Source: a virus | Length of the DNA stretch: 27,615 nt | Virus record (IMG/VR): IMGVR_UViG_3300049005_000031 | Coordinates: 1 to 27,615 of that record | Reading direction: 5' to 3' (one strand) | Shown here: in pieces, positions 13-27,523 of the stretch | Layout of the letters: each line of letters opens with the position of its first letter | Numbering within the stretch: position 1 is the stretch's first letter | Notes under the pieces: generated by a model | What the model was told of the DNA's origin: nothing | The model's database searches: none | Seen by the model: only the letters and a program-made list of their open reading frames with translations | Program-made: the position numbers and the translations under genes

Positions 13-738
13 GTGAAGACTTGCAACGTCTGCGAGTACCGCTACCCGAAGGAGGAAGGCGGGCTGGAGGCGTGCCCCAGGTGCTCGAAGGATCGCCACT
101 GCCAGAAGCGGCACATCAAGGATCACGTCCGCTGCAAGCACCACGGCGGGAAGTCGCGCGCCGGGCTGTCGCACCGCGGGCTGAAGCACGCGCGCAAATC
201 GCGCTACCTCGACGTGCTCGACCCGAAGGGGAAGAAGGACTACCAGGGCGCGCAGGAGGGACCGAACAAGCTCAGCCTCGAAGAGGACATCGATCTCCTC
301 GACATGCGCGTGCGACGGTTGCTCTCCGGCGAGCCGTCCCGGTCTTTCTGGAAGGAAGTGGGTTCGACCTTCGAGGAGTTCGCCTCGGCGCAGTCGGCCA
401 AGGATCGCGATCGATCTCTCGCCGCGCTGCAGAAGCTCGCGGAGCTGATACGCGGCGGCGAGAACGAGGCGAAGCGCTGGGGGGAGATCGAGCAGCTCGC
501 GTTCGTGCGGCGCCCGCGCATGGCGCTCACCGAGACCCGGCGCAAGGTGCACCTGGCGGAGATGATTCACATGGCGTGGGTGCACGACATGATGAGATTT
601 TTGACCGCGTCGATCTACCGCCATGTTAAAGACCCTGACGCCCTCAACAACATCACTACCGACCTCCGCCGAATCGCTGGTGGGGTTGTTCTTGACGTAT
701 CTCCGACCGGAGGAGGCGAAGCCGGAGGAGACTACTGA
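13..738 (+). CDS. Putative terminase small subunit (zinc-ribbon N-terminus), possibly 5'-partial
   Basis: This 241-residue protein probably recognises phage DNA for packaging with the large terminase encoded next. Evidence: it lies directly upstream of the large terminase, and its N-terminus has paired cysteines (CNVC at residues 4-7, CPRC at 21-24) followed by CKHHGGKS and a basic stretch, a pattern common at the start of phage small terminases and their neighbours. The middle and C-terminal parts are charged and helical, with no catalytic motif visible. The start shown is a GTG. The frame stays open to the left edge of the window, so the real start could lie upstream. The 3' end overlaps the large terminase by 116 bases. 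The family call rests mainly on position and the Cys/HGGKS region; a DNA-binding regulator of another type is possible. Confidence 0.55.
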   Translation: MKTCNVCEYRYPKEEGGLEACPRCSKDRHCQKRHIKDHVRCKHHGGKSRAGLSHRGLKHARKSRYLDVLDPKGKKDYQGAQEGPNKLSLEEDIDLLDMRVRRLLSGEPSRSFWKEVGSTFEEFASAQSAKDRDRSLAALQKLAELIRGGENEAKRWGEIEQLAFVRRPRMALTETRRKVHLAEMIHMAWVHDMMRFLTASIYRHVKDPDALNNITTDLRRIAGGVVLDVSPTGGGEAGGDY

Positions 739-2419: not shown

Positions 2420-4057
2420 ATGGAGATGAATCAGTTGGGCATCTGGAGGAGCATGGGCGACGTGCTCGACGAGCGCGACGGAGAGCGGGCGAGTGTGCGC
2501 GCGTCGTCGCCCCGCGCTTCCGTTCCGTCGCGCTCGCGCGCCTTCGCCGGCGGCCGCGTCACCGTCGACCACCCCGGCGACAACCTGCTCGCCGCCGCCT
2601 CCTTCATCTCGCCCTTGAGCACCGACCCGCTCTGGCGCGGCGCCGACTTGAGCCCCAAGGCCCTCAGCCGCGTGCCGCCCGCGCGCCTGCTGGAGCTGCT
2701 CGCCGACAACAGCCCGGACGTCAGCCGCGCCCTCTGGGACACGCTCATCATGTGGAACCCCGGCTACGACTTCAGATGTTACAAGCCGGGCGGGCCGGGC
2801 GCGAAGAAGGTCGAGGACGCGCGCGCGAGGCAGGCGATCACGGACTTCCTCAAAAACCTGCACGGCCCTTACGCCGCGCCGAACGTCGTGCCGGCCAACG
2901 TCGTCATCGCCTCGCTCTTCATGGGCTACTTCCTGCGCGGCGCGATGTGCGCCGAACTGGTGCTCGACCCCGAAGGGCGCGTGCCGCTCGAGATCGCGAC
3001 GCCGGACCCGGCGCTCATCGGCTTCACGCGCGTCGCGGACGACGCGCGCGGCGCGGCCTGGCAGCTCGGGCAGTGGCAGCAGTTTAAGTTCGTCGCCTTC
3101 GAACGCCCCACCGTCGTCTACGTGCCGCTCCACCCGTTCCCCGGACAGCCCAGGGGCAGGGCGATGGCGACGCCCGCGCTCTTCTCGACCCTCTTCACGC
3201 TCGGGCTGCTGCACGACCTGCGGCGCGTCATCTCGCAGCAGGGCTACCCGCGCCCCGACATCGCCATCAAGTTCGAGGAGGTGATGAAGCTCCTGCCCGA
3301 AGAGGATCGCGACGACCCGGCGAAGGTCGAGGCGTTCCTGAAAGCCGTCGTCAAGCAGATCGAGGACTCGTACGAGCATCTCCAGCCCGACGACGCCTAC
3401 GTCCACATCGACTACATCGAGCACGGGAAGCCCGTCGGCACGGGCGACCGCAACTCCCTGGGCGGCATCGGCGACATGATCACGGCGCTCGAACGGCTCT
3501 CCGTGCGCGCGCTCAAGACGCTGCCGCTCCTGATGGGCATCAACGAGGCGACGAGCGAGACGCACGCCAACCGGCAGTGGGAGGTCTACGCGGCGCACGC
3601 CAAGTCGATCCAGCACGACTGCGAGTTCGTCATGGAGCGCCTGCTCGACCTCGCCCTGCAGGCGCAGGGGGTGGCGGCGACCGTCGAGTTCCGCTTCGCC
3701 GAACTGAGGGCCGCCGAGCGGCTGCGCGACGCGCAGAGCGAGGCGGGCGAGATCGCGAACGAGGCGCGCAAGCGCGACGAGGGCTGGCAGACGAACGACG
3801 AGGCGTCGCAGAAGATCGTCGGGCACGCGGCGGTCGCCGAGCCGACGCGCGCGCAGACGCCGCCCGCGCCGGGGGTGGCGGGCATCAACGCCGATCCGGG
3901 CAGCCAGCGGGACGTGCGGGCCGTCGAGCTGTGGAACCAGTACAAGCGCGAGACTGCGTTCGTCGACGGCGACGGCGAGACGGTGTTCAGCATCCCCTAC
4001 GGCGAGTGGTGGAACATCCGCTACGGGCCGGCGGGCTCGGAAGCGCTGAGACAATAA
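2420..4057 (+). CDS. Portal protein
   Basis: The portal forms the dodecameric ring at one capsid vertex through which DNA enters and to which the terminase and connector attach. The 545-residue protein is called from its position just after the large terminase and from portal-like features. There is a long helical C-terminal half with a conserved-looking segment near residues 340-410 (GTGDRNSLGG, then a helix ending in LPLLMGINEAT and ETHANRQWEVY), where portals carry the tunnel-loop and crown helices. The N-terminal 50 residues are low-complexity (Ser/Arg/Ala-rich). The start is well supported by GGAGGGGAG ending about 6 bases before the ATG. The exact portal subfamily is not resolved by eye. 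No fused head-morphogenesis domain is visible at the C-terminus. Confidence 0.85.
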   Translation: MEMNQLGIWRSMGDVLDERDGERASVRASSPRASVPSRSRAFAGGRVTVDHPGDNLLAAASFISPLSTDPLWRGADLSPKALSRVPPARLLELLADNSPDVSRALWDTLIMWNPGYDFRCYKPGGPGAKKVEDARARQAITDFLKNLHGPYAAPNVVPANVVIASLFMGYFLRGAMCAELVLDPEGRVPLEIATPDPALIGFTRVADDARGAAWQLGQWQQFKFVAFERPTVVYVPLHPFPGQPRGRAMATPALFSTLFTLGLLHDLRRVISQQGYPRPDIAIKFEEVMKLLPEEDRDDPAKVEAFLKAVVKQIEDSYEHLQPDDAYVHIDYIEHGKPVGTGDRNSLGGIGDMITALERLSVRALKTLPLLMGINEATSETHANRQWEVYAAHAKSIQHDCEFVMERLLDLALQAQGVAATVEFRFAELRAAERLRDAQSEAGEIANEARKRDEGWQTNDEASQKIVGHAAVAEPTRAQTPPAPGVAGINADPGSQRDVRAVELWNQYKRETAFVDGDGETVFSIPYGEWWNIRYGPAGSEALRQ

Positions 4058-6970: not shown

Positions 6971-8215
6971 ATGGCCATTAAGAAGAAACTGAGTCTGGCG
7001 CGGATCACGAAGATGGGTCCTGCCGACATCCTCGGCGGCATCAACCTGGAGATGTTCCGCGACGCCTACGACCACGGCCTCAGCCTGTCGGCGTGGCTCG
7101 AACAGATGAACCCGACCGAGGCGGGCGACAAGGGCAGCCTCGACGCCTTCGGGCGCGTGCTCAAGGCCGCGGGCATCGTCACCCGCACCAACTACGCCGC
7201 GGGCTTCTACGCCGACGTCTTCGAGGACGCCTTCGACGGCACCCCCCAGCGGCGGCTGCTCGGCGCCGAGTGGATGCGCCGCCAGTGGCTCGCCGCCTCC
7301 GCCGGCATGAGCCCGAACACGCGCGCCGCCGTGCTCGGCAGTGACGACTACGGCCTCAACACGGCGATGCGCCCGTGGGTCGACGCCGCGCGCGCGCGCG
7401 ACCAGCAGATGGAGCCCGCCATCCCGCTCGCCGAGCTGATCGCGCAGACCACGCCCATCGAGGGCGACGGCGCGCGCATGGTCTACGTGCAGGACGTGGA
7501 CCCGAAGGCGAAGCGCATGGTCAGGGTCGGCGAGACCGCCGAGGTGCCGCGCGTGCGCCTCAAGTCCTCGGAGCAGTACGTGCGCCTCTTCAAGTTCGGG
7601 CGCGCCATCGAGACCTCCTACGAGGTCATCCGCCGCCAGCGCCTCGACCGCGTCAAGATGTGGATCGGCCTGCTCGCCATCCAGGCCGAGGTGGACAAGG
7701 TCTCGGTCGTCGTCGACGTGCTCATCAACGGAGACGGCAACCCCGGCACCGCCATGCTCACGCACGATCTGACCGCCCTCGATCCGGCCACGACGCCGAA
7801 CAACATCACGCTCCCCGCCTGGCTCAGCTACAAGCTGAAGTTCAAGAACCCCTACCGCCTGACCCACATCCTGTCGCGCGAGTCGGGCATCCTCAAGGTG
7901 ATGCTGCTCAACGTCGGCAGCGCCAACGTCCCGCTCGCCGTCGTCGCGGGCTTCATCGGCGTCGGCAACGTGCGCCCGATGAACAACAGGCTCGCGGACG
8001 ACGTGCAGTACGGGAACACCGACGACGCGCCGGCGAATCAGATCGTCGGCATCGACAAGCGCTTCGCCGTCGAGCGCTTCACCGAGGTCGGCTCCGACAT
8101 CACCGAGATCGAGAGCTACGCCATCACGCAGACGCGCGTGCTCGTGATGACCGAGACGGAAGGGTACGGGAAGATTTACAAGGAGGCGACGCGCGGCCTG
8201 AACCTCGCCGCGTAA
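6971..8215 (+). CDS. Major capsid protein
   Basis: The 414-residue protein forms the icosahedral shell. Evidence: it follows protease/scaffold and decoration genes, it has the expected size, and its mixed helix/strand content with many conserved-looking glycine and asparagine turns fits an HK97-fold or lambda-E-like capsid protein. Features include FKFGRAIETSYEVIRRQRLD (about residues 201-220, spine-helix-like), and a C-terminal half with an RLTHILSRESG segment and a domain ending in EIESYAITQTRVLVMTE. The start is the ATG at 6971, placed 6 bases after AAGGAGAG; the frame is open further upstream but that part overlaps the decoration gene. A strong GC hairpin follows the stop. I cannot assign a capsid subfamily by eye. 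Confidence 0.82.
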   Translation: MAIKKKLSLARITKMGPADILGGINLEMFRDAYDHGLSLSAWLEQMNPTEAGDKGSLDAFGRVLKAAGIVTRTNYAAGFYADVFEDAFDGTPQRRLLGAEWMRRQWLAASAGMSPNTRAAVLGSDDYGLNTAMRPWVDAARARDQQMEPAIPLAELIAQTTPIEGDGARMVYVQDVDPKAKRMVRVGETAEVPRVRLKSSEQYVRLFKFGRAIETSYEVIRRQRLDRVKMWIGLLAIQAEVDKVSVVVDVLINGDGNPGTAMLTHDLTALDPATTPNNITLPAWLSYKLKFKNPYRLTHILSRESGILKVMLLNVGSANVPLAVVAGFIGVGNVRPMNNRLADDVQYGNTDDAPANQIVGIDKRFAVERFTEVGSDITEIESYAITQTRVLVMTETEGYGKIYKEATRGLNLAA

Positions 8216-13401: not shown

Positions 13402-16400
13402 ATGTCCGTGTACGAATATTCAGTACGGATCAAGACCACGCTCGACGACTCTTCGCTGCCGGAAGAGCACCGCCGCCTGCTCGCCAAACTCGAAAGGAGT
13501 TCCGAAGAATCTTCACAGCGGATCAAAAAGTCGGCTACTAGCGCACAGAGCGAAGCTAGTCGCGCCGCCGAGCAGAGTGCGCCGATCATCATCCGCACCT
13601 ATGAGCGCGAGGCGGCTGCGGCTGAGGCATCCGCCGCCAAGCAAATTGCCGCGACGCGCGCCCTCACGGCGGAAGAAATAAAGTTACAAGAAGTCCGACG
13701 CCGCACGCAGTTCCAACGGGTCGGCGTCTCCGGGGCGGAGTTGGATCGGCTGGGCGTCCCGAAGATCGGATCGGGGTTAAGCGGGGCGGCGGAGAAGGAA
13801 GCGGCTGCGAGTCTGCAACGCCAGCGCGCGATGTGGACGACTTCGGTCGGCGACCTTGAGAAGGGGGTAAAAACCTCTGCGGCTTCGACCGCGCGGCTTA
13901 GCTCCGAGACGGACAAGCTCATCGCCAACTCTGCTAGGGCAATCAGCGGGGCGGAGAGCGCAGCTGTTCGTGCCGAGGCTTCCATCGCTCGCACCACCGC
14001 GAGCATAGGCGCGGCGAAGGCTGAAGCATCTAGTTTCGGCGGCATCATCGCGGGCTTGGCGAGCCCGGTTGGGATCGCCGTCGCCGCGTTCACGGTATTA
14101 GCAACGGTCGCGATAGGCGCGGGTGCTGCCGCCTTCAAAGTGTCCGACGATTTCGCGAAGACGGGCCGGCAGATTGCATTCACTTCCGAGCAGACGGGGC
14201 TCTCCATCCAGAATGTTAGTGCCTTACGCGTCGGCATGACGCTGTTGGGTAAGGACATTAATTCACTCTCGCCCTCAATCAATCTCTATCTCAAAAATTT
14301 ATCCGAAGCCGCGCACGGTAACGTTCAAGCGGCGGCTACTTTTAAACGCTTCGGTTTAGACGCTAAGGCTGGGATTCAAGACCCGAACAAAGCCATCGAG
14401 GACTTGATCAAGCGTCTCGGAGAGATCGAGAACCCGGCGGAGAGGGCGGACGCGGCGTTTAAGCTGGCGGGGCGTGGCGCGAAAGACCTCGCACTGATCG
14501 CGGCGGAAGCGCACGGCAGTCTGAAAGAGCTGCAAGCGACTGCGGACAGGCTGGGAGTCGCTTTTTCCGAGAACGATGTAGCCGCCTCAAAAGAATTCGA
14601 GAAGTCCCTAGCATTACTGAAGCTACAAATCGAAGGGGTCGGCTACAGCATCGCGCGCGAAGTGCTGCCCACGGTAGGGAACGCGATCACTAAGATCGGC
14701 GGCTACCTGCAAGAAAATCAAGAGGCGTGGAAGGCTTGGGGTAAATCTCTCTCCACGAGTGTAGACGAAGGCTCTAAGGTACTCACTTTTCTTGACGAGA
14801 TCGCGGCGCACGCCAACACGGCCGAGCGGGAGGCGGAAGACCTCGGCGTCCGCATCCGTCAACTCGCGCTCGCGGAGGCAGGCGCACCAAACCCGCGGGC
14901 GAGCGGGGCGGATGACTTCTTCGGTCGCCTGATGCGGCTCTCGAAGGCAGAACTCGGCATCGGGCATGAACCGGGAAGATTGAACCGCGGCGAGGAGGAG
15001 TATGTCGCCCCGTCCGACATGGGGCGCGTGGGTGAGACGAAGCCGAAGCCGAAGCCATTCGGAGAGATAGGAGACGTTGCGCCGCGAAAGGCGCGCGTCG
15101 GCGCAGACCCCGCCGACGCGGCGATTCAGAAACTCAACAAAGACATAACCACCGTCGAACGTCTCACCAGCGACGCGATGGAGAACCTCCAGCGCGCCTA
15201 CAGTCTCGGCTTGATCGGGGTCGCCGACTACGCGGCTAAAGCCCGGAGGATAGAAGAGAAGCGCACTACTGATGTTAGCGCGCTCTTACAACAGGAGCGC
15301 GATCTCGCGGTCGGTAAAAAGAAGGATCAGGCGAACGCCCTCGCTGCCATCGACGACAAGATCACGGAGGAAGTCAGTAAGAACGCGAAGAACAGAATCA
15401 GGATTACCGAGCAGACCGAATCCGATCAGCTCGACATGTTTAGGCGCATCGGCGAGGCGAGCCTTGACCTGTCGGTTTCCTCCGGTAAGCGGCGCACTGA
15501 CGCCCTGCGCGCGTCCGCGGAATTAGGCATCAAGACGCACGCCGACGCGGAAGCAGAGATCGACAAGATAGAGCGTGCCGCGTTTCTCCGAGAAGATAAA
15601 TGGCTCGCGGCGCAGCAGGAGCAATACAAAAAAGGCTCGAAGCAGTTTCAGGACTTCGCGATCAAGAGGATCAAAATTGCCGACGACGAGGCGGCGCGGA
15701 TTGAAGAGTCGCAGGATCGCATCTTCGCCGCTCTTAGTAAGGACGCACGGAAGTTAGAAGAACTCGATCAACTGCTGACGGGCGTCGAGCGGGAGAATAT
15801 ACAACGCCGCAACGAGATAAACAGGGGACGCATTGATCTGTTGGGGAGGTTGGGCGGCGATCCGAAGTACGTTCGACAGTTAGGGCAAAGCCAATCTGCC
15901 GCCGAAGAGAATCAGCGATACACAGCGGAGCGACAGGAGAATGCCAACCAAAGGTTAACTGCTCTCGCGAAGGCGTCAAAGAATCAGATCGGGATGATCA
16001 ATGATGACTTCCGGCAGCGCGACGAACTCGCCGAGCAGGAGCACCAGCTCAGGCTCGAAGAGATCATGCTCGAACCTTTAATCCGTTATCGCGAGAAGCT
16101 GGCGGAGATCGCCGGCTCCATCGGCGACATCTTCGGCAACGCGTTCTCGGCGCTGGGGCAGAAGGGCCGATCGTTCTTCGGCGAGTTGAAGAGCGGGTTC
16201 TCCGATCTGTTCAGGAGCATCGTCCGGGACTTCATCTCGAGCCGGGTCAAGCAGTACATCGAGAGCCTGTTCAACCCGACTTACGCTGCCACGAGGCAAG
16301 GCGGCCAGTCGTCCGGCGGCGGCATCCTCTCGACCATCTTCGGCGGCATCGGCTCGATCTTCCGCCCGCAAGGCGCGGCGGGCTTCCCCTCGACCCCCGG

Positions 16401-17625
16401 CTTCAACCCCAACGTCGGCGGCTTCAACCTCGGCTCGCTCTTCGGCTCGTCGGGCAGCCCGTCGGGCGGGGCGGGCGGCATCTTGTCTTCAATCCTCGGC
16501 GGCGGCTCTAATTTATCCGCGCCCGTCTCCGCCTCGCTGCCCGTCACGTCGGCGGCGCAGCGCGCCGCCATGCTCGGCACGGTCTTCCCCGCGGGCGTGC
16601 CCAACTTGACGCGCTCCCTGCTGTCCGGCTTCGGCTTCGGCCTCAAGCCCGGATCGGGCGGCGCGCTCTCTGCGCTCGCGCCCCTGCTCGGCGTGAGTCT
16701 GGGCTCGTCGCTCGGCGGCTCTTCCGGCTTGGGTCGGATACTCGGCGGCGTGGGCGGCGGGCTGCTCGGCGTCGGGCTCACCGCCGCGCCCGGCTTCCTC
16801 GGCACCGGGGCTCTCGCCGCGCTGTTCAGCAACCCCTTCACGGCGGTCGCGGGCGGCGCGCTGCTCGTCGGCGCGTTGGTACTCGCGAGGAATTCGGCGC
16901 GCCGCCGCGACGAGACGACCAGGAACGCGCTCTCGAACGACACCGGCACCGCCATCTGGCAACTGATCGGGCAAGCCAAAGCCGGCACCCTCGGCTTGAA
17001 CGAGGCGAAGGCGCAGTGGGCGCAGATTCAGCAGAAGTACCTGGCGGGCGCGAACGCGATCAAGGATAAGAGGACCCGCCAGCACGCGCTCGATCAGTGG
17101 TCCCACGACTTCATGCCGCTGCAAAAGATTCTCTACCAGGCGGCGGCGCAAGCCGACACGCAAAAGGCTCAGGCGCAGTTGCTGCACCAGACCTACGCCG
17201 TGAGCTCTTTCGCCTCGGGCGGGTTCGTCGGCGGCTTTTCCGACGGCGGGATGATGATGCCGTTCAGGGGGCGCGTCCCCGGCGTTTATAACAAAAAAGA
17301 CGACCGGCTGGCATTGCTGACGGGCGACGAGGTCGTGCTGACGCCGCCGCAGTGGCAGCCCATCCGGCACTACCTGAAGGCGGCGGGCGTGAGGGGGTTC
17401 GAGGGCGGGGGCGCCGCCTTCGGGGCGGCGGCGCGCGCGGCCGGCTTCGGGGGCGACACGCACGTCAGCGTCACCATCTACCCGGACAAGACCGCGACGG
17501 TGGAACTCGACTCGCCGCTGCTCCGCGAGAAGATCGTGAAGACGGTGCGCGCCGACATCCGCTCGAACCCGGCGGACATCCCCGGCGACATCGACATGTC
17601 GAATAAGAAGACGAGGGGGTACTGA
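13402..17625 (+). CDS. Tail tape measure protein
   Basis: The 1407-residue protein sets tail length and helps DNA entry. Evidence: it is the largest gene, placed after the chaperones, with long charged helical and coiled-coil stretches (about residues 10-210 and 570-900), a hydrophobic segment at about 213-245 (GGIIAGLASPVGIAVAAF), a Gly-rich region with hydrophobic runs at about 1113-1163 (near the sequence GGLLGVGLTAAPGFLGTG), and a C-terminal tail-tip-type segment (ASGGFVGGFSDGG...PGVYNKKDDRLALLTGDEVVLTP) seen in many tape measures. At 0.15 nm per residue the tail would be about 210 nm. No lysozyme or peptidase domain is recognised. Codon use changes near 16000 from relaxed to strongly GC-biased, suggesting a recombinant gene. 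A start directly after the preceding stop (AGGTAA-ATG) implies coupled translation. Confidence 0.9.
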   Translation: MSVYEYSVRIKTTLDDSSLPEEHRRLLAKLERSSEESSQRIKKSATSAQSEASRAAEQSAPIIIRTYEREAAAAEASAAKQIAATRALTAEEIKLQEVRRRTQFQRVGVSGAELDRLGVPKIGSGLSGAAEKEAAASLQRQRAMWTTSVGDLEKGVKTSAASTARLSSETDKLIANSARAISGAESAAVRAEASIARTTASIGAAKAEASSFGGIIAGLASPVGIAVAAFTVLATVAIGAGAAAFKVSDDFAKTGRQIAFTSEQTGLSIQNVSALRVGMTLLGKDINSLSPSINLYLKNLSEAAHGNVQAAATFKRFGLDAKAGIQDPNKAIEDLIKRLGEIENPAERADAAFKLAGRGAKDLALIAAEAHGSLKELQATADRLGVAFSENDVAASKEFEKSLALLKLQIEGVGYSIAREVLPTVGNAITKIGGYLQENQEAWKAWGKSLSTSVDEGSKVLTFLDEIAAHANTAEREAEDLGVRIRQLALAEAGAPNPRASGADDFFGRLMRLSKAELGIGHEPGRLNRGEEEYVAPSDMGRVGETKPKPKPFGEIGDVAPRKARVGADPADAAIQKLNKDITTVERLTSDAMENLQRAYSLGLIGVADYAAKARRIEEKRTTDVSALLQQERDLAVGKKKDQANALAAIDDKITEEVSKNAKNRIRITEQTESDQLDMFRRIGEASLDLSVSSGKRRTDALRASAELGIKTHADAEAEIDKIERAAFLREDKWLAAQQEQYKKGSKQFQDFAIKRIKIADDEAARIEESQDRIFAALSKDARKLEELDQLLTGVERENIQRRNEINRGRIDLLGRLGGDPKYVRQLGQSQSAAEENQRYTAERQENANQRLTALAKASKNQIGMINDDFRQRDELAEQEHQLRLEEIMLEPLIRYREKLAEIAGSIGDIFGNAFSALGQKGRSFFGELKSGFSDLFRSIVRDFISSRVKQYIESLFNPTYAATRQGGQSSGGGILSTIFGGIGSIFRPQGAAGFPSTPGFNPNVGGFNLGSLFGSSGSPSGGAGGILSSILGGGSNLSAPVSASLPVTSAAQRAAMLGTVFPAGVPNLTRSLLSGFGFGLKPGSGGALSALAPLLGVSLGSSLGGSSGLGRILGGVGGGLLGVGLTAAPGFLGTGALAALFSNPFTAVAGGALLVGALVLARNSARRRDETTRNALSNDTGTAIWQLIGQAKAGTLGLNEAKAQWAQIQQKYLAGANAIKDKRTRQHALDQWSHDFMPLQKILYQAAAQADTQKAQAQLLHQTYAVSSFASGGFVGGFSDGGMMMPFRGRVPGVYNKKDDRLALLTGDEVVLTPPQWQPIRHYLKAAGVRGFEGGGAAFGAAARAAGFGGDTHVSVTIYPDKTATVELDSPLLREKIVKTVRADIRSNPADIPGDIDMSNKKTRGY

Positions 17626-17925: not shown

Positions 17926-18537
17926 GTGGCAGGACGCGACGCGCAGGGCGCGACCTTCGACGCGATACTCGCCGGCGACGCCTTCGACTCGGCGGAGCTC
18001 CTCGTGCTCACGCTCGCCGACGGCGTGACCGTCATCCACCTGTCCGACGTGCCCGTGACCGTCGGCGCGCAACCTTACGTGCCGGACGTGAGGGAGCCGG
18101 GCGAGCCGAAGTTCTCGCAGGGCGGCAACACCGACGGCATGAGGATCGGACTCGACAACACGGACGGCGCGTACTCCGCGACCGACGCGGCGGGCGACTC
18201 ACTCCTCGAGGGCGCGACGTACCGCTACCTGAGGGCGGTCTCCTACCCCGGCGCGAACGACTGGCACGCGGACGAGATAGACGACGGCAGGTTGAGGGAC
18301 GTGGAGATCGATCAGGGGCTCGCGCACTTCTCCCTCATCTCCGACATGAGCGACCCGTCGAGGGTCGTCTCCGGCGAGGTCGTCACGCTGGAAGAGCTGA
18401 CGGTCGTCTCCGAAGTGGTCACGACCGGCGGCGGCGATCGTGTCGGCGGCGGCGGCGGATCGAACGGCTGGCGGCGCGACAACTACTTCGACTACCTGCG
18501 CGACCGGCAACTGGGCAGGGAGAATCGGGCGTACTGA
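17926..18537 (+). CDS. Putative tail tip / distal tail protein (DUF2163-like N-domain)
   Basis: The 203-residue protein begins with a beta-rich domain (about residues 10-150) that reads like the first domain of tail-tip proteins in siphoviruses: LLVLTLADGVTVIHLSDVPVTV, then YVPDVREPGEPKFSQGGNTDG and a DDGRLRDVEIDQG turn. It ends with a Gly-rich linker and a polar tail (NGWRRDNYFDYLRDRQLGR). It uses a GTG start just after the preceding small gene, and its stop overlaps the next ATG (TGATG). The family label is from the pattern of short strands and position, not a diagnostic motif. It probably connects the tape measure end and tube to the large tail protein that follows. Confidence 0.5.
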   Translation: MAGRDAQGATFDAILAGDAFDSAELLVLTLADGVTVIHLSDVPVTVGAQPYVPDVREPGEPKFSQGGNTDGMRIGLDNTDGAYSATDAAGDSLLEGATYRYLRAVSYPGANDWHADEIDDGRLRDVEIDQGLAHFSLISDMSDPSRVVSGEVVTLEELTVVSEVVTTGGGDRVGGGGGSNGWRRDNYFDYLRDRQLGRENRAY

Positions 18538-21500
18538 TGGCTACCCAGACCACACTCGTCGACGCGTTCGGGCGGCAGGCGACCGAGGGCTTGCGGCGCT
18601 GGGTCGGCCGGGTCGGCAGCCGCTGGGGCGGGATCGATCTGGTCGGCTCCGGCGAGATGGACGGCGTCGACAAAGCCTATTACGCCTCGGGGCGCGAACT
18701 GCCGGAGTTCGATTCGGCGGGCGCGCGCAACTGGAAGCTCCACTCGACCGACCCGGGCGTCGAGAGCGGCGCGCCGGAACTGATACCGGGTTTGCCGTTC
18801 TTCAAGACGAAGGGGCAGACCTGGATCGAGTGGCTCTTGCCCGAAGACTACACGACGGGCGACGACACGCCGCAGGCGATACTGTGGATGCTGCGCTGTC
18901 TGAAGGTGTGGGACTACACCCTGAGCGGCGGCGACCTCGTGCGCTCGGCGTCGAAAATCTTCTCGGCGAACAACGCGCTCGTCAGCCTCTTCATCGGCAC
19001 GGAGCGGATCAGGCGCCCGCTCTCCGGCTTCCACGGCGCCGACTGGATGGCCTTCCGCGACAGGTGCTCGGGTACGATCACCTTCGACGGCGGGACGGGC
19101 CTGAAGGGCGAATACTTCGACGGCGACGCCCTCGCGGGAGCGCCCAAGATCACGCGCAACGACGCCTACGTAGATTTCACGTGGGACGGCGTGTTCCCTT
19201 CGCCCGCCATCGGGGCCGATCCGTGGTCGGCGCGCTGGACCGGCAAGGTCAAGCCGCAGTTCGGCGAGACCTACACCTTCTACACAAAATCCGATGACGG
19301 CGCGCGGCTGTCAGTGAACGGCGTCCAGCTCGTCAACGACTGGGCCGACGGCGCGGAGCGGGAGCAGAGCGGCCAGGTCGCCCTGTCCGCCGGCGCGGAG
19401 TACGACATCGTGCTCGAATACTACCAGCGGCGCGGCCCGGCCCGGATCGCGCTCTCCTGGTCTTCCGCGTCGCGCCCGAAACAGATCGTGCCGCAGGATC
19501 GCCTCTCGCCGGGGGCGCGCCAGGTCGAGCGCTTCGACGCGCACGTCGCCTTCCCCCAGACGCTCCCCGCCCCGACCGCCTTCGAGTCGGTGATGCGGCG
19601 CGCGCCGGGCTGCGACTGGTACAAGGCGAACGGCAAGGTGAGGGTCTGGTCGTCGCCCGACCGCCCCGTGCTGAAGCGCTTCACCTACGATCTCAGCCAG
19701 CTCGCGCGCCTCCCCAACGTCGTCGACGGCTCGTTCAAGATGCGCCCGCGCTCCCGCGAGGATCAGCCCGACTACGCGACCTTCACCTTCTTCGATCTGG
19801 ACGACGCGCTCTACAAGGAGCGCACCTTCACCGTCGATCGCAGGGCGGACAAGACGAAGCCGCCGAAGTCGCCGATCGGCCCCGTCCCGCTCGGGGTCTG
19901 CGGCTGGAGCCTCGCCTCGCGCATCGGCGCGTCCGAGATGAACCTGATCGCGCTCTCGATGACGACCGACCTCGCCGGCTTCGCGGACTCCTACAACGTG
20001 GTCAGGGGCGGCGTGGTCGAGACCTCGCACGAGGTGCCGGGCTGGAGGGAGTCGTCGCCGCCGCGCCTCATGATCACCGAGGAGCAGTTCCTCACCAGGG
20101 GCGTGGCTGACGACCGCCGCTTCTCCGCGCGCCTCCACGCCCCCGACTACTACTCCGACGACGCGCACGAGGCGCTGCCGCCCCGCGTCGTCTCCGACAT
20201 CCCGTCGCCGTTCGTCGCGCCGCCGGCGGTCGTCTCCGTGGCCATGCTCCGGGCCGACCGCTGGCTGCCGGACGACACGGACGTGCCGCTCATACAGGGC
20301 GTCGTGCGGTTCGCGGCGCACCCGTACACGCAGCGCGGGAGGGTGTGGTTGAAGCGCCCGATGAAGCCGTTCACGGCCGACGCGGGGACGGACGCGCTCA
20401 CTTCCGTAAACCACGGATTCGCCGAAGGGCAGAAGGTCGAAGTCATCACGTCGGGCACGCTGCCGGCGCCGCTCGCGGTCGCCACCCCCTACTACGTCCG
20501 CGACGTGACGCAAGGGTCGTTCAAGCTCTCCGCGACTCCGGGCGGTGTGGTGATTAATTTAACGTCGGCGGGGACGGGCGCGAACGACGTGCGGGAACTC
20601 GATTTCGTCGACACGGGGATCCTCGTCGTGCCCGATCCGGCGACGCTCCGGGGCACGTTCGAGATAGAGAACGTGTCTTTGGGCAGGCACGACGTGCGCG
20701 TCGTCGCCGAGTCGTTGAAGGGCGTCTCGCGGGGCCTGGGCGATGCGCAAAGCTACCAGGTGGTGATCGAGTCGCGCGCGAACGTCTCGACGCCGGCCGG
20801 CTTGGCCATCGCCAACGTCACGCGCGCCGGCCTACGCCTCACCTGGTCGGCGAGCCCCGAAGTGTACGTCGTCGGCTACAAGGTCGAGCGTTATAACGGC
20901 TCGGCGTGGTCGGTCGTGGCGGCACGTGTAGACTCTCTCGAATGGAGCGACCCCGCGTCTTTCGACGGCGCGCAGTACCGCGTCACCGCGCTCGGCAGGG
21001 GCGGCTTGGACAGCGCGGCTTCCGCGGCCGTCACCTTCGAAGCCTCGACACTCTTCGGCACGACCGCGCCGGTCGTAAGTGTCATCACCCTCAAAGGCAC
21101 GGCTTCGTTTCTCGTCTCGCCGCCTGCCGGAATGATGCAGACTGGTCGTGACGCGATTTTGAGAATCAGGGCGCGGGTGACGACTTACGACTCCTCGTCT
21201 AACGTGCCGAACGAAAACTTCTACTGGTTCGAGGCCAGCGCGAAACCGTCGCAAATCAATTTCCCCGCGCCGCTCCGCAAAGGCGCCGTCTACGAGGTCG
21301 ACATCAACCTCGCCTACCAATTCTTCGGCGGCGCGCTCGGAACTGAAACGCTAGCCGCGGTGATAGGGAACTACTCTACGCAGCAACAGTCCGGCGACAC
21401 GCTGGTCTCGGCGAGCGAGACTTCTCCGGGCGTGGTGTCGATCGTCGCTCAGACCTTCGGCGGCGAGAAGACCGTCACCGCGCCCGGCGGCGCGCGCTTC

Positions 21501-21647
21501 CTCGGCTACACCACTTCGGCACTCCCGCCGTCGACGACCGAGTTGCCGAGCGACAAGGACTGGTGCTTCCACTACGACACCGCGCTGTCGAAGCTGTACG
21601 CCGCCTTCAACATCTCCGGGACCATCAAGAAGGTCGAGTTGACGTGA
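18537..21647 (+). CDS. Large tail tip protein with PA14 and fibronectin III domains
   Basis: This 1036-residue protein is probably the tail-tip hub or host-recognition protein. Domains: an N-terminal tail-type region (residues 1-180); a PA14/GLEYA-like domain at about 184-325, with GLKGEYFDG, the strand FTWDGVFPSP, the typical TYTFYTKSDDGARLSVNG block and a YDIVLEYYQRRGPARIALSW end; a mixed middle region; and a fibronectin type III domain at about 748-834 (TPAGLAIANVTRAGLRLTWS ... YKVERYNGSAWSVV). PA14 domains usually bind carbohydrate, so contact with host surface glycan is plausible. The start overlaps the preceding stop by one base (TGATG). There is no peptidase or lysozyme motif that I can see. 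Whether it is a hub (lambda J-like) or an accessory fibre is unresolved. Confidence 0.8.
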   Translation: MATQTTLVDAFGRQATEGLRRWVGRVGSRWGGIDLVGSGEMDGVDKAYYASGRELPEFDSAGARNWKLHSTDPGVESGAPELIPGLPFFKTKGQTWIEWLLPEDYTTGDDTPQAILWMLRCLKVWDYTLSGGDLVRSASKIFSANNALVSLFIGTERIRRPLSGFHGADWMAFRDRCSGTITFDGGTGLKGEYFDGDALAGAPKITRNDAYVDFTWDGVFPSPAIGADPWSARWTGKVKPQFGETYTFYTKSDDGARLSVNGVQLVNDWADGAEREQSGQVALSAGAEYDIVLEYYQRRGPARIALSWSSASRPKQIVPQDRLSPGARQVERFDAHVAFPQTLPAPTAFESVMRRAPGCDWYKANGKVRVWSSPDRPVLKRFTYDLSQLARLPNVVDGSFKMRPRSREDQPDYATFTFFDLDDALYKERTFTVDRRADKTKPPKSPIGPVPLGVCGWSLASRIGASEMNLIALSMTTDLAGFADSYNVVRGGVVETSHEVPGWRESSPPRLMITEEQFLTRGVADDRRFSARLHAPDYYSDDAHEALPPRVVSDIPSPFVAPPAVVSVAMLRADRWLPDDTDVPLIQGVVRFAAHPYTQRGRVWLKRPMKPFTADAGTDALTSVNHGFAEGQKVEVITSGTLPAPLAVATPYYVRDVTQGSFKLSATPGGVVINLTSAGTGANDVRELDFVDTGILVVPDPATLRGTFEIENVSLGRHDVRVVAESLKGVSRGLGDAQSYQVVIESRANVSTPAGLAIANVTRAGLRLTWSASPEVYVVGYKVERYNGSAWSVVAARVDSLEWSDPASFDGAQYRVTALGRGGLDSAASAAVTFEASTLFGTTAPVVSVITLKGTASFLVSPPAGMMQTGRDAILRIRARVTTYDSSSNVPNENFYWFEASAKPSQINFPAPLRKGAVYEVDINLAYQFFGGALGTETLAAVIGNYSTQQQSGDTLVSASETSPGVVSIVAQTFGGEKTVTAPGGARFLGYTTSALPPSTTELPSDKDWCFHYDTALSKLYAAFNISGTIKKVELT

Positions 21648-21832: not shown

Positions 21833-22909
21833 ATGATTAACGTGGCACTGGCGGCGAACGGCGCGACCGCGGCGGCGACGAGCGAGGCGGGGGCCGGGTA
21901 CGCGGCGGCGAAGGCGATTAACGGGGATCGGATCGGCGCCGACTACGACTCCGGCGGCGCGAACAGCGCCTGGGCGGCGTCGGGCACCGTGCCGGCGACG
22001 CAGCAGTCGATCACCGTGGACTTCGGGCAGATGCGCAGCGTCACCGAGATCGACGTGTTCAGCGCCCAGGACGCGCACTCCGCGCCGTCGCCGCCGACGC
22101 TCACGATGACGGGCGGTCTGTACGTCCTCCAGAATTTTAGCCTGGACTACTGGACGGGCTCGGCGTGGGCGGCGATACCCGGCGCGGCGGTCACCGCGAA
22201 CGACAAGATTTGGAAGCAGTTCACGTTCCCCGCGATCTTGACGACGAAGATCCGCCTGAACGTGACCGCCACCGGCGACACCTTCGTCCGCGTCGTGGAG
22301 CTGGAGGCGTGGGGGAACCAGCCGCCGCTCTCGCCGCCGGCGGCGATCCTCGGCGGCAACGAGGTGCAACTGTTCTCCGCCCCGTCCGCGGTCGTGTGGT
22401 CGACCAACGTCGGCACGCTTTTCACCGACGCCGCGGCGACCATCCCTTACGACGGCGTGAGCGCGCGCGCCACCATTTACCTGAAGGCGAACAATAAGAC
22501 CGCGACCGGCAGCGTGACGGGCGGCGCCGACACCGCCACGGTCGCCGTCACCGGCGTCTTCCCGCTCACGCCCGACTGGGGCTATAAGGTGTTGACGTTC
22601 GTCCCAGGCGTCGTCTCCACCGCCGAGGACAGGGTGACGACGAAGGTGCGCTACAAGGGCGGCGACTTCTACGGCGTGCAGTTCACGATGACGAGGCGCA
22701 CCGCCGCGGCGTGGTCGGCGTTCGAAGCTTTCCGCGCGCACCACCGGCTGCACCTGCCCTGGTACTTCACCGACCCGGAGACGGGGATCAGGTACAGGCT
22801 GAAGTTCGATCAGTCCGACTACGAGGCGGAGCGCAGCAACGCGGGGCGCGGCATCTACGACGACAACAACTTCAACTGCCTGGCGCGCAAGTACTCCGGC
22901 TCGCTCTGA
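21833..22909 (+). CDS. Tail protein with N-terminal discoidin (F5/8 C-like) domain
   Basis: The 358-residue protein probably contributes to receptor binding at the tail tip. Residues about 2-165 read as a discoidin/F5-8 type C domain: NVALAANGATAAATS, then AINGDR, SAWAASG, QQSITVDFGQMRSVTEIDVF, a long strand set, and TKIRLNVTATGDTFVRVVELEAWG at the end. Such domains commonly bind sugars. The middle (165-250) is an Ig-like Thr/Ala-rich linker. The C-terminal 110 residues (YKVLTFVPG to the end), with HLPWYFTDPETGIRYRLKF, resemble minor tail proteins that attach to the tip. It is the last late gene on this strand and ends 4 bases before a convergent gene; no terminator is visible between them. 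Confidence 0.7.
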   Translation: MINVALAANGATAAATSEAGAGYAAAKAINGDRIGADYDSGGANSAWAASGTVPATQQSITVDFGQMRSVTEIDVFSAQDAHSAPSPPTLTMTGGLYVLQNFSLDYWTGSAWAAIPGAAVTANDKIWKQFTFPAILTTKIRLNVTATGDTFVRVVELEAWGNQPPLSPPAAILGGNEVQLFSAPSAVVWSTNVGTLFTDAAATIPYDGVSARATIYLKANNKTATGSVTGGADTATVAVTGVFPLTPDWGYKVLTFVPGVVSTAEDRVTTKVRYKGGDFYGVQFTMTRRTAAAWSAFEAFRAHHRLHLPWYFTDPETGIRYRLKFDQSDYEAERSNAGRGIYDDNNFNCLARKYSGSL

Positions 22910-22913
22910 GGGA

Positions 22914-23429
22914 TCACTGCCGGCGACGCCTTCTGCGCGCCGCGCCCGTCGCCCCGGCCAGCCCGGTCGAGAGAAGTATTAGCGTGGCCGGCTCGGGCGT
23001 GGCGACGGTGAACAAGGTGCCCGTGCCTGGTATCCGGGTCACGAACCCCCAACCGCTGAAGTTGATGTGGACGGTCGGCCCCGTGCAGAACGAGTCAGTG
23101 TTCTGGCAGACGTTGAGCGTGCCACTGACGAAGTTCTCGGTGAAGAATCCACCACCTTGAAAGTGGGTGGATAAGAACGTGGGGCCGGGGTAGAGCGCAA
23201 CCCCGGCGCCGTGAAGGACGGTGTCGATGAAGAAGTGGGAACTGTCCGACGGGTCTTGATCGCCGCTGTAGCCGACGATGTCCGAAGAGATTCGGACGCT
23301 GCCGTTGCCGAGCAGGAACGTCGATCCGTTGGCGAGGGTGACAGAGTCGGCTTTCGCCGCCGGGGCGCAGGCGAGCGCGAGGGCGAACGCCGCGAACAGG
23401 GTGAGTGAGAGTTGACGGAGCGGGGGCAT
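22914..23429 (-). CDS. PEP-CTERM exosortase substrate (secreted, 171 aa)
   Basis: The protein has an N-terminal signal peptide (MPPLRQLSLTLFAAFALALA, cleavage probably after AAKA) and a textbook PEP-CTERM tail: Pro-Glu-Pro at residues 145-147, a hydrophobic helix LILLSTGLAGATGA, then six arginines. In known hosts, exosortase processes such proteins for export to the surface or polysaccharide matrix. The central ~115 residues are beta-like, with two cysteines (NVCQNTDSFC), and not otherwise recognised. I chose the ATG at 23429 because AAGGAG lies 7 bases upstream; an ATG 33 bases earlier lacks this. It runs against the late genes, has its own promoter and looks like a host gene carried as cargo. 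No exosortase gene is in the window, so processing would depend on the host. Confidence 0.85.
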   Translation of the reverse strand: MPPLRQLSLTLFAAFALALACAPAAKADSVTLANGSTFLLGNGSVRISSDIVGYSGDQDPSDSSHFFIDTVLHGAGVALYPGPTFLSTHFQGGGFFTENFVSGTLNVCQNTDSFCTGPTVHINFSGWGFVTRIPGTGTLFTVATPEPATLILLSTGLAGATGAARRRRRRQ

Positions 23430-23580
23430 GATCTTTCTCCTTGTGGAGGCCGTGAGTGGCACTTGGGAAGCGGCGGGCCCCTCCGCGGCGGGGGGCGGGC
23501 GCGCGGGCTAAGGCTACTGACGCGAGACGGGGGCAAGCCGAGGCAGGGTAGCCTGCTGACCGAACAGTTAGGGCGCGGAG

Positions 23581-23608
23581 GTTATACGCAACAGGGCGGG
23601 CGCGTCAA
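23581..23608 (-). promoter_or_regulatory. Sigma-70-like promoter for the PEP-CTERM gene
   Basis: On the minus strand TTGACG (23608-23603), a 16-base spacer and TATAAC (23586-23581) each match the consensus at 5 of 6 positions. Transcription would begin near 23574, giving a 5' leader of about 145 bases before the ATG at 23429. Confidence 0.6.
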
Positions 23609-23819: not shown

Positions 23820-25013
23820 ATGAGCGCCAGAAAAGATCAGGAACTAACCCCGCCCGTACCGAAGGACCCCACACACCAGACGCTTCATAGTTTATGGACT
23901 GATCGTAAATGGGTAATAACCACCGCGCTAGCCGTAACCGCCCTGCTGCTCGGCGTTGTCTATAACAACATATTCCTACCGATCATTGACGGCCGAATTG
24001 ATGGACGGATCGATAGCAAACAAAAATCATTGGCGGACAAACTTGATTCAGTAACTAATACAATCAATGACGACGCCCGCAAGATCAGCAACATTGAAGG
24101 GCAACTTAAAATTCTACTCGATAAGGTTATTACAAATCCGACGCGGGGGAGTAAGGAGGAAGTGAATGCCAACGTCTCAACCGCACGGCAGATTTTGCGT
24201 GAAGCGCAGCAGGAGAAAGTTGTGTTCGAGCCGAAAGCGGTAAAGGCGGGGGCGCATAATGTCTTCGCGCACGCGGTCGCAGCCGGACCGGATGTGCGTC
24301 CCACCCTTTGGGCCGCCACTAACCAATACGTGAGTTACCAGACCTTTCTCTACGCACTGACCCCCGATAAGACGCCCGGCAACCTCAAGACTATAGACAC
24401 ACCGCTCCCGCCGGGGAAGTCCGCCGACACCGTAATCGTTACGGGCGATCAGGAACTCGGCGGGCGTGTCTTTATGAACGCAAGGTTCGAGCACGCGCGG
24501 GTCACGTACGGAGGCGGCGCGCTGTCTCTGAGCGCCGCCTCCTTCTACGATTGTGATTTTCAGATATCTGACGTGGCCGCGGGGCGTGAGCTGGCGAAAC
24601 AAATCCTCGACTCGCCTACTGTTTCGATTCAGACACCGGCAGTCCCGACAGGCGGCTCGGCCTCGAAGTTCTGGGAAGGTTCATTCGAAGTCACCGAAGG
24701 GGGTCTGATTAACGCCCGATACTCCGTGAAATGTACGATGGCGAGTGATGCGACCAGTTGGTGTAATGACTTTCCGGACTCTGCCAGGATCGTTGACCCC
24801 GCGGGGAAGATTATCGAGAGGGGGGGCGCGTCAGCGGGAATCCATACTATCAGTGCGATCGCCAGAACCACGGGTACATACAAGATTGAATTGTTTGCCG
24901 GCGTGCCGGGACCAGCGATGCCCAACCCTATCGCCAGATTGGTGTCAATTAAAGTACAAGTTAACGGTAGCGACGTGCGGATCAGCTCGCCGTTCCCCGT
25001 ACCCTCACCTTAA
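23820..25013 (+). CDS. Membrane-anchored protein with coiled coil and beta-rich external domain (397 aa)
   Basis: I do not recognise the family. Layout: polar N-terminus (1-30), one transmembrane helix (about 31-54), a DGRIDGRID repeat and a coiled-coil-like region (about 57-105), a middle region, a short part with repeated hydrophobic positions at about 208-248 (GRVFMNARFEHARVTYGGG ... FYDCDF) reminiscent of beta-helix or pentapeptide-like coils, and an Ig-like C-terminal domain (about 270-390). The N-terminus is probably cytoplasmic and the bulk external. The ATG 23820 is preferred because a promoter ends ~10 bases upstream; a longer frame starts at 23730. Base composition is clearly more AT-rich than the phage genes, suggesting separate acquisition. 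It has its own promoter and no phage family signature, so I treat it as cargo. A phage structural role is unlikely. Confidence 0.65.
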   Translation: MSARKDQELTPPVPKDPTHQTLHSLWTDRKWVITTALAVTALLLGVVYNNIFLPIIDGRIDGRIDSKQKSLADKLDSVTNTINDDARKISNIEGQLKILLDKVITNPTRGSKEEVNANVSTARQILREAQQEKVVFEPKAVKAGAHNVFAHAVAAGPDVRPTLWAATNQYVSYQTFLYALTPDKTPGNLKTIDTPLPPGKSADTVIVTGDQELGGRVFMNARFEHARVTYGGGALSLSAASFYDCDFQISDVAAGRELAKQILDSPTVSIQTPAVPTGGSASKFWEGSFEVTEGGLINARYSVKCTMASDATSWCNDFPDSARIVDPAGKIIERGGASAGIHTISAIARTTGTYKIELFAGVPGPAMPNPIARLVSIKVQVNGSDVRISSPFPVPSP

Positions 25014-25079: not shown

Positions 25080-25310
25080 TCAATCGTACTCGCTGTCGAG
25101 CAGCGGCGCGCTGCGCCGGTACTTGAGGATCAGCGTGTTCCAGTTCGTCTCGATGCGGCGCAGCTCCGTGATCGGCATGGTGCGCCAGTGGGCGAGGTTG
25201 GCTTCGCGCGCGGGGTAGCCGAGCACCTCCGCGGACTTCTCCGCGACGGACGCGACGAGCCGCTCGCGCTCGGCGTCGTCCGAAGGGAGTTTGTAAACGC
25301 GGGTCGGCAC
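25080..25310 (-). CDS. Small hypothetical protein downstream of the ParB-like gene (76 aa)
   Basis: I do not recognise it. The 76 residues are charged and helical (DDAERERLVASVAEKSAEVL, then LAHWRTMPITELRRIETNWNTLILKYRR), with no cysteines or membrane segment. It uses a GTG start that shares one base with the stop of the ParB-like gene (TAGTG), so it is translated by coupling from the same mRNA. The stop lies 8 bases before the operon terminator stem. The link with ParB suggests a partner or regulator, but that is guesswork. Confidence 0.6.
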   Translation of the reverse strand: MPTRVYKLPSDDAERERLVASVAEKSAEVLGYPAREANLAHWRTMPITELRRIETNWNTLILKYRRSAPLLDSEYD

Positions 25311-27523
25311 TACCGCTTGCCCGCACCAGCGCGCGCGACCTTCTTCGCCCGCGCGGCTGCCGCCGATTTCTGGACGGGCACGGGCTTGCGAGCAGCCTTC
25401 GCGCCGCGCGCCTTGGCGGGCTCAGCCTTCCGCGCTTTGACAGCCTTACGCGGCGCGCCCGCCGGCTCGGCGTAGAGCAGATCGCCCGCGACGATCTGAA
25501 CCGACTTGCCGCCGTCGAGCTCCACCTTGCAGGTCACGCCGCCCGAGTAGTTGCCCGCGTCGAGCAGTTGGCCCTCCATGCCGGCGTGATCGCCGCGCAC
25601 GACGATCGCGCGAGCGCCGAGCCTGACGACGCCCTCCGGTCCGTCGAGGTAAGGGAGTAGCGTGACCTTTCTTTCGACCTGCTGCTTGAGATCGTCGTAG
25701 CCGATCCCTTTCGACTGAGTCACCTTGTCCGTGTAGAGGACGGGCGGCGGTGTCTTCGGATCGGAGAGCACCTCGAGCACGTGGCGCTGCAAGACGCCGT
25801 GGAACTTCTTGGCGGGCGACTGGGCGAACCGCTCGCGAGCGTCGAAGAGGTTGTACGGCACGCCGTGCTCGGCGGCGAGCTTGACGATCTCCGACTGATT
25901 CCTTTTAGCGTAAAGGTCGATGTTCTCGCCGAGGTGCGCGACCGAGCAGAGGAACATGAACGCGACGAGGCCGGGGTCGTCGAGCGCGTCGAAGTGCGCC
26001 CGCGCCTTCTCCACCTTCTTGTTGCCGTAGCCGCCCGGCAGCTTCGTCACGTCGTCCCAGCGCAGCGCCTCGTACATCACGCCCTGCGTGTCGGTCGGGA
26101 CGAGCTCGAAGTGAGCCCACGCCGCGCGCGCGAAGAAGCCGCGGTCGAGCGGGAACCGCACCGCCCGCCCCTCGGCCCTCAACACCCTCACGACAATCTT
26201 GTCGTAGAGCGCGCCGAGCACGCGCCGGCGCACCGGCTCCGCGACGCGCGCGTCGAACAGCTCCTGCTTGCGGGCGAGGAACTGCTTGCGCTCGGCGGGC
26301 GTCTTCTCTTGCCCGGTGCCGGCGGACGAAGACGCAGACGAAGACGAAGACCGGCTCGCGGAGCGCCCCTTGTGATCCTTACACTTCGGCTCGGCGCAGA
26401 CCCAAGCAGTCTGCCCGCGCCTAGTGCCCTGCACGAAAACGCCCGGCAGCGCGAAGTCGCAGCGCGAGCCCTTCTTCTCGATGACCTCGTAAGCGTCGCG
26501 CCCGAGCGAGCCCGCGGGGAGGTTGTGGCGGCGCACGTCGTTCGCGTCTACTGACCAGATGTCGGTCAGGCGGAGAACTTTCGCGGCGCCCTCAGTTTTT
26601 AACTTCTCCTCCTGGCGGGAGATCCACGCGACCATCTTCCGCTCGTACCCTTCGGGGTTCGTGCAGATGGCTTTCTGCGCGGCGTCGGGGAAGAGGAGCG
26701 CGTTGGTGGCCGTGTTCGACGGACAGGTCGAGCAGGGACCCTGATCGGGCACGAGAGAGGGGTCTTCGAGGCTCCACGGCGCTTTGGCGAGGTCGAGGGC
26801 GACGTTGCTGTTGATCCAGCGGCGCAGGTCTTCGACTGTTTGCAGATCGTCCTTGCGCGGTTTGTAGATTTGCGTGTTGAGTTTGGAGTCATACCGGACG
26901 AACTCCTGCCCGTAGCAGGCGTCCAGCGCCTTGGGCTGCACCTCGGCTGCGAGCCGCGCGATCTGCGTCGCGTGACCGAGCGAGATGCGACCCTCGCGGA
27001 AGTCCTTCGCCGCGGGCTCGATCAAGGTGTTGAGCGACAGGCGCTGCGCGACGTAAGCCGGCGTCTTGCCGACCCGCGCCGCCAGCTCCTTCGCCGTCAT
27101 GCCGGCGACGACCGCGAGCAGGTGCTTGTAGCCCGTCGCCTCGTCGAGCGGGTGCACGTCCTCGCGCTGCAGGTTCTCCACGATCTGGAGTTCCAGCACC
27201 TGCTCGTCCCCCATCTCCTCGACGAGCGCCGGGACGGTGACGTGCTTGGCGAGCTTCGCGGCGCGGAAGCGGCGCTCGCCCGCGACGATCTCGTAGCGCG
27301 CCAGCGCGATCTTCGTCGTCGGTCTGACGAGGATGGGCTGGCGGATGCCGTGACGGTTGATGCTGTCCGCGAGCTCGGCGAGCTTCGCCTCGTCGAAGTG
27401 CGTGCGCGGGTTGGTGGGCGACGGCGCGATCTCGGAGATCGCGAGCAGCTCGAACTTCGGCTGCGGGACCGCGCCGGGCGCCTGCCTGTTGTGTCCGTTA
27501 GTTTCAGTTGTCGTTTTCTTCAT
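25310..27523 (-). CDS. Large ParB-domain protein with zinc clusters, KOW-like segment and basic tail (737 aa)
   Basis: The N-terminal 165 residues are a ParB/Spo0J-type domain: ISEIAPSPTNPR, then GIRQPILVRP, the nucleotide-binding AGERRFRA (81-88), ENLQRED (116-122), and a helix-turn-helix (about 142-162, MTAKELAARVGKTPAYVAQR). Such domains bind DNA clamps and CTP in partitioning. The protein then departs from typical ParB (~300 residues): a cysteine cluster (CSTC and later C, about 263-290), a second one (about 355-385, ending VCAEPKC), a Ser-rich linker, a long unknown region, a KOW-like segment (about 635-690: GARAIVVRGDHAGMEG), and a Lys/Ala/Arg-rich tail like a histone tail. The start has GGAG 7 bases upstream. 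No ParA gene is in view, so segregation is unproven. Host takeover, nuclease or DNA compaction roles are possible. Confidence 0.75.
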   Translation of the reverse strand: MKKTTTETNGHNRQAPGAVPQPKFELLAISEIAPSPTNPRTHFDEAKLAELADSINRHGIRQPILVRPTTKIALARYEIVAGERRFRAAKLAKHVTVPALVEEMGDEQVLELQIVENLQREDVHPLDEATGYKHLLAVVAGMTAKELAARVGKTPAYVAQRLSLNTLIEPAAKDFREGRISLGHATQIARLAAEVQPKALDACYGQEFVRYDSKLNTQIYKPRKDDLQTVEDLRRWINSNVALDLAKAPWSLEDPSLVPDQGPCSTCPSNTATNALLFPDAAQKAICTNPEGYERKMVAWISRQEEKLKTEGAAKVLRLTDIWSVDANDVRRHNLPAGSLGRDAYEVIEKKGSRCDFALPGVFVQGTRRGQTAWVCAEPKCKDHKGRSASRSSSSSASSSAGTGQEKTPAERKQFLARKQELFDARVAEPVRRRVLGALYDKIVVRVLRAEGRAVRFPLDRGFFARAAWAHFELVPTDTQGVMYEALRWDDVTKLPGGYGNKKVEKARAHFDALDDPGLVAFMFLCSVAHLGENIDLYAKRNQSEIVKLAAEHGVPYNLFDARERFAQSPAKKFHGVLQRHVLEVLSDPKTPPPVLYTDKVTQSKGIGYDDLKQQVERKVTLLPYLDGPEGVVRLGARAIVVRGDHAGMEGQLLDAGNYSGGVTCKVELDGGKSVQIVAGDLLYAEPAGAPRKAVKARKAEPAKARGAKAARKPVPVQKSAAAARAKKVARAGAGKR

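Follow-up and report, generated by a model that had tools for sequence, protein, structure and literature searches.

A predicted exosortase substrate gene beside the tail module of a viral contig, and similar genes in other phages

The window, by which we mean the whole stretch of 27,615 nt that was analysed and which is a complete IMG/VR record, is classified as viral and encodes on its minus strand a PEP-CTERM protein of 171 residues (22914..23429), which we propose to be an exosortase substrate. The best explanation of the gene, to which we give a probability of about 0.5, is that it is phage cargo, a moron, and that its product would be exported, sorted by an exosortase of the host and reduce the adsorption of further phages. 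Taken alone the gene is a modest find; more interesting is that exosortase substrates recur in phage genomes, capsid operons included.

Sorting signals and transcription unit

The protein scores 24.8 bits against PF07589 of Pfam (curated cut-off 20.7) and 26.6 bits against TIGR02595 of NCBIfam (curated cut-off 16), and PF07589 matches no other gene of the record. The PEP-CTERM domain covers residues 143-171 (22917..23003, minus strand) and contains the PEP motif (22989-22997) and six arginines (22920-22937), both on the same strand. The C-terminal hydrophobic stretch reaches an 11-residue mean hydropathy of 1.9 and is followed by RRRRRRQ, the protein ending in GAARRRRRRQ. The N-terminus, MPPLRQLSLTLFAAFALALACAPAAKA-DS, is signal peptide-like with an 11-residue hydropathy maximum of 2.6, and a signal peptide of residues 1-27 ending in AKA (23349..23429, minus strand) was called from hydropathy and, by inspection, an AxA-type site, AKA-D. 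A domain above cut-off, a signal peptide and a hydrophobic helix with a basic cluster mark a protein as a member of the PEP-CTERM class, and all of them are present; the complete exosortase substrate that an earlier note on this DNA had described, with signal peptide, PEP motif, hydrophobic helix and six arginines, is borne out by the two model scores. No named NCBIfam PEP-CTERM family was above its cut-off for the body of the protein. The model of the floc-associated PepA, NF033554, gave 25.9 bits against a cut-off of 80, and no match when the C-terminus was removed. A single-sequence AlphaFold model had a pLDDT of 37.5 and was too poor for use.

The open reading frame starts with an ATG at 23429, an in-frame GTG being also present at 23462, and seven bases ahead of the ATG there is a ribosome-binding site, AAGGAG (23437..23442, minus strand). 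Further upstream, a predicted sigma-70-like promoter, TTGACG-N16-TATAAC (23581..23608, minus strand), has 10 of 12 consensus matches. Two sites in the whole window score 10/12 when both strands are counted, this one, the best upstream of the PEP-CTERM gene, being among them, and 0.4% of the mononucleotide shuffles of the upstream stretch reach this score. A stricter scan, in which T was required at the sixth position of the -10 box, did not list the site at 23608-23581. No good sigma-54 site was found upstream of the gene, the best scoring 8/12, and no clear terminator of its own. The stop codon of the gene is convergent with that of the last tail ORF (21833-22909, plus strand), the two being 4 bp apart. 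The gene is located between the phage tail module and parB, on the strand opposite to the virion genes, and its ribosome-binding site and promoter-like site are those of a transcription unit of its own between phage modules, as for a moron. The same minus-strand unit, convergent with the last tail gene, had been read from the letters in the earlier note, and the AAGGAG, the 10/12 promoter and the 4-bp gap agree with it.

From left to right, the plus strand encodes a large terminase subunit of the GpA type (623..2407; phrog_675, E=9.5e-72), a portal protein (2420..4057; phrog_3753, E=1e-33), the major capsid protein (6971..8215), a homologue of the major head protein of Caulobacter phage Seuss (alignment A1), a tail tape-measure protein (13402..17625; phrog_9570, phrog_2276) and large tail proteins. 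One of the latter (18537..21647) has a PA14 domain (PF07691, E=1.6e-24) and matches in part a tail-fibre PHROG, and the last gene of the tail module, which faces the PEP-CTERM gene, has a discoidin (F5/8 type C) domain (21833..22909; PF00754, 33.4 bits). The divergent neighbour of the PEP-CTERM gene (23820..25013, plus strand) encodes a putative membrane protein with one predicted membrane segment. Its GC content is low, 55% as compared to 67%, no family match or phage relative was found for it, and it is possibly a second cargo gene. On the minus strand follow a small ORF from the ORF list (25080..25310), abutting parB, and the gene of a ParB-like partition protein (25310..27523). The G runs at the contig end (27548-27615), just beyond the start of parB, are probably a sequencing artefact. 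No integrase, repressor or defence family was found in the window, and no exosortase in the part of the phage seen.

Relatives of the phage and of its cargo gene

The ParB of the window is 41% identical over 303 aa to the ParB of the temperate Variovorax phage VarioGold (OP296522) and 33% identical to that of Acidovorax phage Aval, and both these phages encode integrase and repressor-type genes. VarioGold has a cargo interval between its lysis genes and attP, where an O-antigen ligase gene (L305:17115-18350) and genes of small membrane proteins are located on the strand opposite to the virion genes; beyond it follow the integrase and then the parB operon. The window has the same interval plan, the opposite strand, a separate transcription unit and a predicted effect on the cell surface, but its interval lacks lysis genes and integrase. 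Furthermore, the ligase acts on O-antigen, whereas the window gene would act at the level of protein, through the sorting enzyme of the host, and lysogeny is only suggested here. The match is a similarity of plan, and it is the ParB that suggests a temperate life style. According to the earlier note the protein would act after lysogeny. A temperate phage would agree with the cargo position and the ParB, but no integrase is encoded in the window; most of the other viral contigs with such genes are likewise without one, and there the gene is often part of a late operon.

The capsid is distantly related (about 28%) to those of Caulobacter phage Seuss and Achromobacter phage JWF, and closer relatives (45-49%) are found in a few IMG/VR contigs and in contigs binned as Sulfuritalea and Kouleothrix. 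The closest ones, L020 and L021, have the head module in common with the window, and their tails, which differ, are sheath-like by inspection; this looks like a modular exchange between tail types. These two were rejected as a test of the cargo slot, only the head module being shared and the tails different.

PF07589 was above cut-off in none of 30 capsid-related records, while the same search recovers the window gene and 44 of the 44 other records that had been selected by PEP-CTERM motif. The gene is accessory in its phage group, and absence from related phages is likewise what is found with morons. The body of the protein has no homologue in viral contigs, genome contigs, INPHARED phages or PDB, and because of this and of the 30 capsid-family records that lack a PEP-CTERM gene we regard the gene as accessory cargo here. 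Scans with the tail protein and parB revealed no relative with the junction of tail and PEP-CTERM gene, so that synteny provides no argument against a chimeric join at 22909-22914. The search of phage and bacterial genomes proposed in the earlier note did not find the gene elsewhere: in a sample of 274 genomes from a single class there were five matches, most of them limited to the tail of the protein. A profile of the window protein against two phage families of PEP-CTERM proteins, family A and that of L221, also aligned mainly over the tail. As to the proposed check of host genomes, the nearest capsid relatives are in two genome bins, and no PF09721 exosortase was found in either. What stands of the host clue in the earlier note is the expectation of a diderm with an exosortase; nothing narrower followed, and these two bins do not provide one.

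Alternatively, the sequence beyond 22909 may derive from a bacterium or a plasmid, through a prophage end or a chimeric join, and the PEP-CTERM gene would then be an ordinary host gene. The contig is metagenomic, the gene is a singleton with no counterpart in the 30 capsid relatives, and the next gene has a GC content of 55% vs 67% and no phage relative. In bacteria a PEP-CTERM gene typically forms an operon by itself and is preceded by a long intergenic region (PMC1569441), which is likewise the arrangement here. However, a ParB of temperate-phage type is encoded beyond the gene, and the phage genes span a GC3 range that includes the 0.83 of this gene. A prophage end could be marked by a tRNA, an attachment repeat or an integrase, none of which was found in the window, and elsewhere PEP-CTERM genes are demonstrably part of phage head operons. 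We therefore consider a host origin of this end of the contig rather unlikely. It is conceivable, too, that the gene is a neutral passenger recently picked up from the host, as it has no relative and is accessory in its phage group, but the ORF is intact, with a ribosome-binding site and a promoter-like site, and the class of genes recurs in viral contigs, which makes this extremely unlikely.

PEP-CTERM genes across viral contigs

A strict DNA pattern, VPEPATLLLLGxG, matched 10 viral contigs in IMG/VR, and a looser one, PEPAxLxLLGxGL, matched at least 120 stretches, 80 of which were listed. Among the matches listed, 83 of the 85 loci examined have a true PEP-CTERM tail, with the motif in frame near the end of the ORF and followed by basic residues, and nearly all of these ORFs have a signal-peptide-like start. 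L195 and L255 were rejected on ORF inspection as chance matches. Both patterns undercount, because the window gene itself would be missed, having S instead of G. PF07589 exceeded its cut-off in all of the 44 records tested, the window not counted. Many viral contigs have two or three PEP-CTERM genes, often close to each other (L004, L202; also the records of L005, L201, L212, L222, L224, L234, L237, L239, L241, L256, L258, L259, L261 and L262).

The proteins group into families, the two largest with 38 and 12 loci and the others smaller. At 29 loci a terminase, portal or capsid gene, as judged by PHROGs, lies within 5 kb of the PEP-CTERM gene, at 16 within 2 kb, and in 29/29 the two are on the same strand. 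Each of the two large families is linked to three terminase types, from which it appears that phage lineages exchange these genes. In L221 the PEP-CTERM gene (L221:5777-6511) is located in the head operon, its start overlapping the stop codon of the portal gene (ATGA), and the next gene starts 3 bp downstream; the order is TerL, capsid/protease, portal, PEP-CTERM, a portal-end-like piece, Ad1, Hc1 and Ne1. Portal profiles match the ORF after the PEP-CTERM gene (L221:6518-6937) with their C-terminal end, as though a longer portal gene had been split by insertion of the PEP-CTERM gene. In L205 the gene (L205:1913-2545) is between TerL and portal, also in a head operon. Neither of the two is host flank. 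The window gene differs from these cases: its sequence is a singleton and it is encoded on the opposite strand, the others being mostly on the late-gene strand.

Tyrosine integrases were absent from 40 and serine recombinases from 43 of the 44 records longer than 20 kb, which is a tendency only, as many of the records are fragments. Integrases are carried by L230, L262, L207 and L218; in L230 the PEP-CTERM gene is at the contig end and may be host flank. The late head operons and the lack of integrases in many cases could also mean that a late-made protein loosens or labels the exopolysaccharide, so that the progeny leave the aggregate or escape trapping in debris. The window gene, however, is outside the late operon and faces it, and known PEP-CTERM proteins promote aggregation rather than dispersal (PMC9850573). 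A role in spread of this kind seems quite unlikely to be the explanation here.

No exosortase was found in any of 30 viral PEP-CTERM records tested, and the C-terminal signal is the only part that unrelated phage PEP-CTERM families have in common. Phages that carry substrates without the enzyme might use them as decoys, which saturate the host exosortase and block the export of host PEP-CTERM proteins and the assembly of the matrix during infection. Contrary to this, family A, a large family, has kept a common all-beta body in 28 aligned members (model pLDDT 77.7). A pure decoy would need no body, and the conserved one speaks against a mere exosortase decoy; the linkage of the family to several terminase types also suggests that the body matters. 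We regard the decoy as very unlikely. The family A model had no significant fold match in PDB or BFVD. When 299 genomes of one phylum were searched with the large family, there were just two matches, both weak and lying towards the C-terminal half. None of the 11 viral PEP-CTERM proteins compared with INPHARED had a homologue there, so that these comparisons provide no isolate. Tail queries of 26 and 28 residues had no match in INPHARED either, the low-complexity filter probably being the reason.

Proposed role and meaning

Bacterial PEP-CTERM proteins are exported by Sec and held by the C-terminal helix, cleavage by the exosortase being supposed (PMC1569441; PMC12188702), and in Nostoc the export depends on the exosortase (PMC12188702). 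They retain exopolysaccharide on the cell: overexpression of PepA decreases the soluble polymer, increases the bound polymer and brings back flocs in an rpoN1 mutant (PMC9850573). The window protein shares with the substrates of the EpsH system the signal peptide, PEP motif, hydrophobic helix and basic tail, the single-gene unit behind a long intergenic region and a homology confined to the tail (PMC1569441), but its gene is on a phage contig with neither exosortase nor sigma-54 site. With PepA of Aquincola/Zoogloea (NF033554), the proposed role of which is polysaccharide retention, it has the sorting signal in common, while pepA is chromosomal and sigma-54-controlled.

From the PEP-CTERM/EpsH literature we infer export, cleavage and a surface location for the window protein as well. 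The gene would be a self-contained cargo unit in the interval that separates the tail module from the leftward parB genes. After export by Sec, the protein would be anchored in the inner membrane through its C-terminal helix and arginine cluster, the host exosortase would cleave it at the PEP motif, and the cleaved product would be released to the cell surface or the exopolysaccharide matrix. There it may change the retention of polysaccharide or mask receptors, and hypothetically fewer phages would then adsorb.

Counting for the cargo reading are the two curated models passed, the full tripartite architecture, the ribosome-binding site and promoter-like site, the VarioGold-like interval and the fact that viral contigs repeatedly carry PEP-CTERM genes, also in head operons. 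Counting against it are the body with no homologue, the lack of a phage relative carrying the gene and of an integrase or repressor in the window, the two capsid-relative bins with no exosortase and the different gene context in the other PEP-CTERM contigs. The remodelling of the surface or matrix and the block of re-infection that the earlier note suggested are plausible by analogy. Its interpretation was right in substance, but its scope was too narrow and lysogeny is unproven.

The earlier note also knew of no established class of phage-encoded exosortase substrates. This agrees with our full-text searches of open papers, which found no description of phage-encoded PEP-CTERM proteins (subscription journals may differ), except that one paper on Yellowstone hot-spring viruses mentions in passing, as host-derived, 13 TIGR03118 proteins, which have a putative exosortase-interaction domain (PMC11003980). 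They are likewise virus-borne with a C-terminal exosortase-interaction domain and are the only published hint found, but they belong to another family and are counted in a list only, with no position, mechanism or class. As for the genes themselves, many viral contigs carry them, and viruses seem to use host exosortase sorting regularly, which has barely been noticed in the literature searched.

Exosortase substrates act in flocs, biofilms and motility, and phages must cross the same matrix. A phage-supplied PEP-CTERM protein could thicken or alter the coat against other phages, or act on the matrix at release. We tentatively suggest, at a little under even odds, that phages of exosortase-bearing bacteria commonly encode exosortase substrates of their own, as separate cargo or as genes of head operons, and recoat the cell with them during infection or lysogeny. 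If true, recoating through host sorting would be a general way, so far undescribed, in which phages control the surface of their hosts. Phages with genes of this kind would be expected to have exosortase-bearing diderms as hosts, and the many viral PEP-CTERM genes are material for testing the function of the sorting system. If phages do supply the substrates, this system would be a battleground between phage and host.
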